Part shown: piece by piece, positions 7,200-63,096 of the stretch | How positions within the stretch are numbered: the first letter of the stretch is position 1 | Layout: each line of letters starts with the position of its first letter | Origin: Methanoculleus bourgensis MS2 | GTDB taxonomy: Archaea; Halobacteriota; Methanomicrobia; Methanomicrobiales; Methanoculleaceae | Assembly (NCBI RefSeq): GCF_000304355.2 | Contig: NC_018227.2 | Coordinates: 1,922,001-1,986,000 of the forward strand | Reading direction: 5' to 3' | DNA: 64,000 nucleotides | The notes under the pieces: generated by a model | The model's input: only the letters and a program-made list of their open reading frames with translations | What the model was told of the DNA's origin: nothing | Database searches by the model: none | Translations under genes and position numbers: made by a program

Positions 7200-7442
7200 C
7201 AGGTCTGCCATACACAGGTGCTCCACGCGAAGCCTTGACGGGGCGTTGCAGGTGCCCGGACAGATCTTCGCGTGCTTCGCGGCTTCGCGTGAACTTTCAG
7301 CGCAGGGGGTGAGCGGGCCTCACGCGAAGACGCGAAGGACGCGAAGGGGCGTTGCCTACATCGATTATCAAAATTCGCGCTCTCCCGCGTGCTTCGCATG
7401 AAGCAACAATCGCGTGGAATATGGGATGCAATGTTCCACTAC
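7200..7442. repeat. Composite CACGCGAAG repeat, reverse family A end at the pelA stop
   Basis: Inverted arms CCACGCGAAG (7219) and TTCGCGGCTTCGCGTG (about 7278-7294) are followed by TCACGCGAAGACGCGAAGG (from 7321). The right part, read on the minus strand, begins GTAGTGGAACATTGCAT and continues into CCACGCGATTGTTGC, matching left ends of family A. The terminal GTAG overlaps the stop codon of pelA. I see no gene between 7164 and 7438. Confidence 0.7.
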
Positions 7443-13275: not shown

Positions 13276-13453
13276 GTAGTGTATCATTTCATCTAATATT
13301 GTCCATGCAATACCATCTCACGCGAAGGGCGCGAAGCCGCGAAGTTCGGTTGCTGGGCGGCATAGTCCCCTTCGCGTCCTTCGCGCCTTCGCGTGCGGTG
13401 GCGATCGCCACTACGCATCAGGACCCGCAACATAAGGTGAAATGGTCCAGTAG
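13276..13453. mobile_element. Family A MITE-like element, GTAG target duplication
   Basis: About 170 bp lies between two GTAG tetranucleotides (13276-13279 and 13450-13453). The left end reads TGTATCATTTCATCTAATAT and the right end AACATAAGGTGAAATGGTCC, which are imperfect inverted repeats of each other. The core is a hairpin with arms CACGCGAAGGGCGCGAAG and CTTCGCGCCTTCGCGTG around a loop of about 25 bases. Near-identical copies occur at 42574-42752 and 62919-63096. There is no coding capacity. Confidence 0.85.
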
Positions 13454-32368: not shown

Positions 32369-32666
32369 CTAGTGTCATGTCAACGACGAATTGTCGCAAT
32401 AGTGCATCGTGTCATCTTATTTTAGAGATTTTTGGAACGTGCCAGGATGGGCACTCTGGTCTCACGCGGGAGAGCGCGATGTTCGGTATAATCCCCTGCA
32501 ACGCCCCTTCGCGCCCTTCGCGGCTTCGCGTGAGGGGTACTAGAGAGTACCGAAGTCTCACGCGAAGCCGCGAAGACGCGAAGAGAGACGGGAGATCTCT
32601 ACGTTGAAGATGACAACAAGCACGAGCACGCCCATATCCGACGTTGAATGATTGACTCGGCACTAG
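32369..32666. mobile_element. Family B MITE-like element, uninterrupted copy
   Basis: About 290 bp between CTAG (32369-32372) and CTAG (32663-32666). The right end inverted reads TGCCGAGTCAATCATTCAAC; the left end is TGTCATGTCAACGACGAATT. Two CACGCGAAG hairpins lie inside. The sequence GGGGTACTAGAGAGTACC at 32534-32551 is the empty target of the A insertion seen in the other B copy. The right end is 42 bp from the hicA stop. Confidence 0.8.
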
Positions 32667-39840: not shown

Positions 39841-39987
39841 GAATGGATCATCGCATTTAATATTTCCACGCGATTGTTGCGTCACGCGAAGACGCGAAGG
39901 GCTCTGGTTGGGAGGAGTTACATGGACTTCGCGTGATGCGGTAGTGCATAGGCAATATTAGATGAAACAGTCCACCACCCTGCCCCT
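39841..39987. mobile_element. Degenerate family A element in reverse orientation
   Basis: The right side GGCAATATTAGATGAAACAG then TCCACCA is the reverse complement of the family A left end. The left side AATGGATCATCGCATTTAAT is a decayed copy of the inverted right end. CACGCGAAGACGCGAAGG and GGACTTCGCGTGATG form the core. It begins 11 bases after the stop at 39830. Confidence 0.65.
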
Positions 39988-40734: not shown

Positions 40735-41090
40735 CCCTCCCTTCGCGTCCTTCGCGCCTTCGCGTGAGGCCATTTCTCGCTGCTTCATGCAGAAGTTCGC
40801 GAAATCCGTGGGGTTATTGGGGTTCCGTCTCGCGCACTAAAAAATAGTTCTACTGCATCGTGTCATCTTATTTTAGAAACGTTTGTCGCATGTTGGGACG
40901 GGCGGCACTCTGGCCTCACGCGAGAGGACGCGAAGTTCGGTATAATCCCCTGCAACGCCCCTTCGCGGCTTCGCGGCTTCGCGTGAGACGTCGGTACTCT
41001 CGATTACCCCTCACGCGGAAGCACGCGGGAGACCGGAAGAGGGATGGGAGAACTCTACATTTAAGATGACAACAAGCACTACCCACAAAG
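40735..41090. repeat. CACGCGAAG arms and a degenerate family B element
   Basis: TTCGCGTCCTTCGCGCCTTC then GCGTGAG (40743-40768) is a lone arm. From about 40855, ACTGCATCGTGTCATCTTAT matches family B inner left sequence at 32400 and 42419. GGTATAATCCCCTGCAACGC (about 40939) and GATGACAACAAGCACTAC (about 41066) match further along. The CTAG termini are lost. No gene is seen. Confidence 0.7.
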
Positions 41091-42386: not shown

Positions 42387-42875
42387 CTAGTGCCGAGTCA
42401 ACGACGAATTGTCGCAATAGTGCATCGTGTCACGTTATTTTGATGCGTGAGATGCAACGCCGATGACCTCATGCGAATATGAAGATTTGACCTCACGCGG
42501 AAGCATGCGAAGTTCGGTATAATCCCCTGCAACGCCCCTTCGCGGCCTCCCGCGTGCTTCCGCGTGAGGGGTACTAGTGGAGCATTTCATCTAATATTGT
42601 CCATGCAATACCATCTCACGCGAAGGGCGCGAAGCCGCGAAGTTCGGTTGCTGGGCGGCAGAGTCCCCTTCGCGTTCTTCGCGTCTTCGCGTGAGGTGGC
42701 GATCGCTCGCCCCGCATCAGGACCCGCAACATAAGGTGAAACGGTCCACTAGAGAGTACCGAAGTCTCACGCGAAGACGCGAAGACGCGAAGAGAGACGG
42801 GAGATCTCTACGTTGAAGATGACAACAAGCACGAGCACGCCCATATCCGACGTTGAATGATTGACTCGGCACTAG
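42387..42875. mobile_element. Family B MITE-like element interrupted by a family A element
   Basis: Outer CTAG sites are at 42387-42390 and 42872-42875. The ends TGCCGAGTCAACGACGAATT and TTGACTCGGCA are inverted over 11 bases. Without the inserted A element and one CTAG the length is about 306 bp, close to the 290 bp of the copy at 32.4 kb. It lies between ino1 and fae. Confidence 0.85.
42574..42752. mobile_element. Family A MITE-like element nested in family B, CTAG duplication
   Basis: 171 bp between CTAG 42574-42577 and CTAG 42749-42752. Ends TGGAGCATTTCATCTAATAT and AACATAAGGTGAAACGGTCC are imperfect inverted repeats. The flanks GGGGTA and AGAGTACC rejoin to the uninterrupted sequence found at 32534-32551. 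Confidence 0.9.
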
Positions 42876-62773: not shown

Positions 62774-62840
62774 ACCCCTTCGCGTTCTCCCGCGTGATCT
62801 GCACCAGAACCCGCAAAATAAGATGAAATAGTCCACCAGG
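62774..62840. repeat. Right half of a family A element
   Basis: CCCTTCGCGTTCTCCCGCGT then GATC is an arm remnant. CCCGCAAAATAAGATGAAAT then AGTCCACCAG matches the family A right end. The left half is missing. Confidence 0.6.
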
Positions 62841-62918: not shown

Positions 62919-63096
62919 CTAGTGGAGCATTGCATCTAATATTGTCTATGCAATACCATCTCACGCGAAGGGCGCGAAGCCGCGAAGTTCGGTTGCTGGG
63001 CGGCATAGTCCCCTTCGCGTCCTTCGCGCCTTCGCGTGCGGTGGCGATCGCTACTACGCATCAGGACCCGCAACATAAGGTGAAATGCTCCACTAG
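62919..63096. mobile_element. Family A MITE-like element, CTAG duplication
   Basis: 170 bp between CTAG 62919-62922 and CTAG 63093-63096. Ends TGGAGCATTGCATCTAATAT and ATAAGGTGAAATGCTCCA are inverted with the outer nine bases exact. A small extra stem ATTGCAT / ATGCAAT lies just inside the left end. The core hairpin is nearly identical to the copy at 13.3 kb. Confidence 0.9.

Follow-up and report, generated by a model that had tools for sequence, protein, structure and literature searches.

Several described systems share features with the elements analyzed herein. Members of the IS630 family (Tc1/mariner; IS630 and ISY100) use a CTAG/TA target, and those studied so far duplicate 2 bp, TA (PMC2170065). 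A preference of IS630 for TA within CTAG is given in the title of a reference quoted in the same paper. MITEPsy1 of Pseudomonas syringae is a short MITE with a 4-bp CTAG-type duplication, as described in passages of PMC3189936. In archaea, MITEs were described in Haloquadratum walsbyi, a genome in which CTAG is also avoided; passages of PMC3119063 report that some of these MITEs are mobile without an intact partner transposase, and that mobile elements target mobile elements. TIME-COMPs consist of two Tn3-derived MITEs whose outer ends make the pair a single transposable unit, which has direct repeats of its own (PMC13367494).

The window, a stretch of 64,000 nucleotides (1,922,001-1,986,000) within the single contig of Methanoculleus bourgensis MS2 (2,789,774 bp), contains three copies of an element named family I in this study. 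All three lie on the plus strand and have inverted ends and matched 4-bp flanks. Copy 1 (13280-13449, 170 bp) has the left end TGTATCATTTCATC and the right end TGGACCATTTCACC, read inward, and is flanked by GTAG at 13276-13279 and the same letters at 13450-13453. Copy 2 (42578-42748, 171 bp) lies between CTAG at 42574-42577 and 42749-42752, and copy 3 (62923-63092, 170 bp) between CTAG at 62919-62922 and 63093-63096. The inverted ends and the matching tetranucleotides reported in an earlier note on this DNA are present at these positions. The lengths given there also agree; the term near-identical was slightly strong, since the pairwise identities are 93.6%, 96.5%, and 93.0%.

Copy 2 is nested within a CTAG-flanked composite of two further MITE families, II and IV, with IS630-type ends (42391-42871, plus strand), which it splits. 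An uninterrupted relative at 32373-32662 (plus strand) served as the empty-site reference. The empty site reads GGTACTAGAGAGTACC, and the occupied locus reads GGTACTAG, the 171-bp element, and CTAGAGAGTACC. The insertion of copy 2 is confirmed by this empty site in the same genome. As single-stranded DNA, the 171-bp copy folds back on itself (z = -5.2). Solitary or decayed family-I-like ends were also seen in the window at 7425-7441, 39844-39974, and 62822-62835; they are probably relics of older copies.

The family extends far beyond the window. When up to 2 mismatches were allowed, the end pattern TAGTGGANCATTTCANC gave 178 + 178 matches in the genome, compared with 3 + 1 for the reversed control. 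These roughly 356 ends indicate at least about 175 elements, including about 45 nearly full-length copies of the subfamily found in the window. With up to 1 mismatch, 109 + 120 matches were found here versus 0-13 in each of 34 other Methanoculleus genomes, and an exact, longer pattern was matched 120 times here, whereas none of 231 other genomes of the order had more than 4 matches. Of all genomes searched, only this species shows the burst; the genus- and order-wide end searches revealed it in no other genome and did not find an autonomous element. Stretches at end sites, a contiguous block of 520 kb, and additional stretches (about one third of the genome) were read, and 154 elements were delimited in them, totaling 33 kb and mostly 150-300 bp long. 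Clustering at 85% identity resulted in ten clusters and 70 singletons, and the largest cluster, with 49 members, is the Family A of the earlier note. The elements are shorter than 600 bp, multi-copy, and without a transposase gene, and they carry terminal inverted repeats and a target duplication. Family I elements are MITEs, and the earlier reading as a MITE is borne out by the ends, the 4-bp duplication, the copy number, and one empty site. Together they probably form a large group of non-autonomous cut-and-paste elements that was active recently.

The flanks of all 154 delimited elements were tabulated, as the earlier note had proposed. An identical 4-mer was found on both sides of 97 elements, while the permutation mean was 48 and the maximum 66. 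Identical flanks other than CTAG were found in 32 elements (permutation mean 6, maximum 16). Both counts lie far above the chance level. Similarly, when only the 92 isolated elements were considered, 52 had matched flanks versus 18 upon shuffling, and 27 had matched non-CTAG flanks versus 6. The matched flanks were CTAG (65), CTAC (16), GTAG (6), ATAG (3), and CTAT (2), with one case each of GTAT, GGAG, CTGG, CGAG, and CTCC. TA was central in 138/154 left flanks and in 138/154 right flanks.

The 32 matched flanks other than CTAG indicate that the duplicated target is a 4-bp NTAN. The duplicated unit is 4 bp because a duplication of TA alone, combined with fixed terminal bases, cannot produce identical non-CTAG 4-mers. 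The argument in the earlier note that CTAG lies outside the element is therefore correct. Its definition of the target as NTAG held for the 4-bp length; for the sequence, NTAN with a strong CTAG preference fits better because CTAC, CTAT, GTAT, and GGAG occur as well. In the 520 kb of contiguous sequence (2262000-2781999) and in the window, CTAG is the rarest of the 256 tetranucleotides (about 3.5-fold under-represented). In the 520 kb, 131 were seen and 480 expected, and 26 of these 131 sites abut a family-I end.

Two types of ends were distinguished within family I, with CTAA marking the left and CTTA the right. One left and one right end were present in 135 of the 154 elements, and two like ends in 10. 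Neighboring elements sharing exactly one 4-mer formed 35 junctions, many of which link elements from different subfamilies. Among the 32 junctions with an assignable orientation, the neighbors were head-to-tail in 28 and inverted in 4 (p = 2e-5). Each insertion doubles CTAG, and landing beside an existing element therefore needs no special targeting. The succession of events within the arrays is our inference; the orientation bias would arise because a pair has outer ends of both types, and can hence be mobilized, only when it stands head-to-tail.

Some joined pairs were found more than once. The dimer D-CTAG-A, named after its two subfamilies, occurs at 261037-261493 with CTAC on both outer sides and at 625887-626343 with CTAG on both outer sides, and the inner junction is CTAG at both loci. 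The two copies agree at 464/467 positions, and the likeness stops at the outer 4-mers. The pair at these two loci thus has the hallmark of a composite MITE of the TIME-COMP kind, in which two MITEs move together and carry direct repeats of their own. Another dimer, A-CTAG-B, is 351/352 identical between 364846-365187 and 2021841-2022182. Within 400 bp on each side of the dimer loci, no common unique DNA was seen beyond short repeats. The simplest reading is that the two dimers evidently transposed as units. A trimer at 73469-73989, whose two inner junctions are GTAG and whose outer flanks are CTAG, is consistent with the movement of joined elements.

Homologous recombination or segmental duplication could in principle produce such arrays and repeated dimers, and unequal crossing-over could expand a dimer into homogeneous arrays like those at 73469-73989 and 1444296-1444809. 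However, in both repeated dimers the outer 4-mers are the exact limit of identity, one dimer copy carries CTAC on both outer sides yet CTAG at its inner junction, and the junctions often unite different subfamilies. This origin of the arrays is regarded as very unlikely, and transposition of joined elements is the preferred reading.

The enzyme that moves family I was searched for among PF01609, PF13546, and NF033545 transposases. No convincing transposase was found in the window among these families, in agreement with the earlier note. The genome search for an IS with matching terminal inverted repeats that had been proposed there gave no full match: an IS with fully matching ends (TGGANCATTTCANC; TGGANC) was not found in the genome or in the order, and the family-I ends match IS630-type ends in part only. 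Collection-wide pattern scans returned 14 matches and 1 match, several of them in coding sequence and none with a matching transposase. A full-text literature search for the end sequence returned nothing relevant. Several candidates were rejected. An IS701-like DDE_5 element (one copy) has the ends TAGGAGTTACGCA, and an IS1634-like element in two identical copies has the ends CCGATCATCCGCAG. Long end pairs enclosing open reading frames (529730-530834, 617688-620016, and 1886000-1886816) contain only host genes or spurious frames.

The earlier note had suggested an IS5-type transposase acting in trans. A 4-bp duplication with a central TA is the pattern of the IS5 group, whose target is YTAR, and the 4-bp length and CTAG fit this target. 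In addition, a CTAG MITE tied to IS5 is known: MITEPsy1 duplicates CTAG or YTAA, and the authors who described it connect it with ISPsy2 of the IS5 family (in passages of PMC3189936); IS5 is therefore kept as a weaker rival. However, the targets CTAC, GTAG, ATAG, and CTAT fall outside YTAR, the resident IS5-like element carries the ends GGCTCTGTTGAA and an 8-bp repeat, and the family-I ends look like IS630-type ends. Family-I-like ends were not seen on any PF01609 or PF13546 element of the genome. The resident IS5/DDE_Tnp_1 elements were rejected as partners on the basis of their different ends; the nearest elements are of the IS630 type. Mobilization by an IS5-group enzyme is thus considered unlikely.

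At least three copies of IS630 elements of the relevant clade are present in the genome. These resident elements (NF033545) are located at CTAG, and two of them directly abut family-I ends. In the copies at 620021-621229 (L071, 3537-4745) and about 570340-571548 (L239), an A7 run splits the transposase into two frames, and each copy is joined via CTAG to a different family-I element. In the copy at 1,857,286-1,858,482, two overlapping frames with an A7 run encode HTH domains and a DDE_3 domain, an arrangement that suggests frameshifting.

Three further CTAG MITE families were found in the genome during the array checks. Family II (about 290-305 bp), seen at 32373-32662 and 42391-42871 of the window, has ends TGYCANGTCAACGAC / TGCCGAGTCAATCATTCAACGTCGG, like the IS630 element at 620,021; genome-wide it lies nearly always in CTAG, and several members contain a family-IV element. 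Family III (about 240 bp) has ends TGCATCGATTCYCAATTACC, like an IS630 element of a relative in the same genus (G033). Its loci include 260794-261032, 712551-712785, and 2457062-2457304, and it often adjoins family-I elements with one common 4-mer. Family IV (about 225 bp) has ends TGCTTGTTGTCATCTTANATT / TGCATCGTGTCATCTTATTTTAG, related to the IS630 element at 1,857,286. Genome-wide, family IV was found at non-CTAG targets with CTAC/CTAC three times and TTAG/TTAG once; the 225-bp window copy, on the minus strand at 40854-41078 (genome 1962854-1963078), has IS630-type ends and CTAC on both sides. Most informative copies of the IS630 elements and their derived MITEs show a 4-bp duplication. IS630 elements of this clade lie in CTAG/CTAG, and one autonomous element (L319) lies in GTAG/GTAG. 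The flanks of an element from G033 (L258), GTAG/CTAG, fit a 2-bp TA duplication.

The relationship between the ends was quantified with a family-I end matrix. The right end of family IV outscores all 7,312 background TG starts, and 18/22 positions agree. For five IS630 elements, each from a different genome, one end also scores (p = 0.0003-0.0019) and the second end does not. Because these five elements are homologous, their tests lack independence. The outermost 3-10 positions of the family-I ends differ from those of IS630. Taken by features, family I has ends related to IS630 ends of the genome and order (18/22 positions; one end each at p <= 0.002) and a CTAG, TA-centered target, and its 32 identical non-CTAG flanks depart from a 2-bp TA duplication. 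Because the studied IS630 elements duplicate TA, family I is not filed as an IS630 member, only as an element moved by a relative. From this sequence likeness, a candidate IS630-type transposase is likely to mobilize family I.

The likeness could instead reflect a short AT-rich motif only, with family I moved by a transposase of another or unknown family that was lost from the strain. The searches of the genome and order, which found no autonomous element with matching ends, are in line with this explanation. So are two cyanobacterial cases, in Okeania sp. SIO3I5 and on the Pseudanabaena plasmid ABRG53b, where MITEs (about 110-180 bp; ends TAGTGGACTGTTTCATCT) resemble family I at their ends and are likewise without an identified transposase. 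The MITE copy of the Pseudanabaena plasmid, which is flanked by CTAG, was the only element with similar ends in the plasmid and phage searches, and no IS with matching ends was found among the Okeania transposases. An Okeania DDE_Tnp_1 element between TAGTGGACTGTTTCATCT-like ends has long repeats of its own, looks nested, and was rejected. The similarity of these cyanobacterial ends to family I may be due to shared ancestry or convergence. However, the family-IV right end agrees at 18/22 positions and outscores every background TG start, family IV shares the target and the 4-bp duplication, and IS630 elements are repeatedly CTAG-linked neighbors of family I. A lost enzyme of another family is given a low probability, and an IS630-type transposase is preferred.

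In the proposed mechanism, a transposase in trans, most likely from the IS630 (Tc1/mariner) clade of this order, would recognize one left-type and one right-type end (TGGANCATTTCANCTNATNTTG...). The ends would be joined to an NTAN site, with CTAG strongly preferred, by a 4-nt stagger, and gap repair would create the 4-bp duplication. Because CTAG is the rarest tetranucleotide and is copied at each insertion, existing elements would be frequent landing sites, leading to tandem arrays with one 4-mer between neighbors. The outer ends of a head-to-tail pair are again one left and one right, and the pair would therefore be mobilizable as a unit. The more general proposal, that a Methanomicrobiales IS630/Tc1-mariner clade integrates at NTAN with a 4-nt stagger and that its MITEs form transposable, polarized head-to-tail trains of mixed subfamilies at the rarest tetranucleotide, is held at even odds.

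Comparison with the known systems places these observations in context. The motif TG...CAYCTWAWTTT is common to the ends of family I, of the resident IS630 elements, and of the MITEs belonging to the latter, and resident IS630 copies abut family I; family I and IS630 differ in the outermost end positions, and a transposase with identical ends was not found in the genome or the order. Studied IS630 members duplicate 2 bp (PMC2170065), whereas the duplication of family I is 4 bp long and, if caused by IS630 transposases, departs from the TA rule of the studied IS630/Tc1/mariner elements. Unlike family I, MITEPsy1 is 100 bp long, has the ends GGAAGGTCTGAAAAAGCC and few copies, and also uses YTAA, and tandem arrays are not among the features described in the corresponding passages of PMC3189936. 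Similarly, CTAG-linked head-to-tail arrays with end polarity are not described in the passages of PMC3119063 on the Haloquadratum walsbyi MITEs. TIME-COMPs have 5-bp repeats and a long cargo between their MITEs (PMC13367494), whereas the family-I dimers have only the common 4-mer between them and ends that are polar, left and right. MITEs are common; less so is a combination in which polar elements number at least about 175, the target is rare and self-renewed, and tandem pairs evidently jump together. The inner versus outer 4-mers of the arrays provide a record of elements moved singly or jointly. The end polarity, CTAG as the rarest 4-mer, the single-4-mer head-to-tail junctions, and the dimers moved as units are new here.
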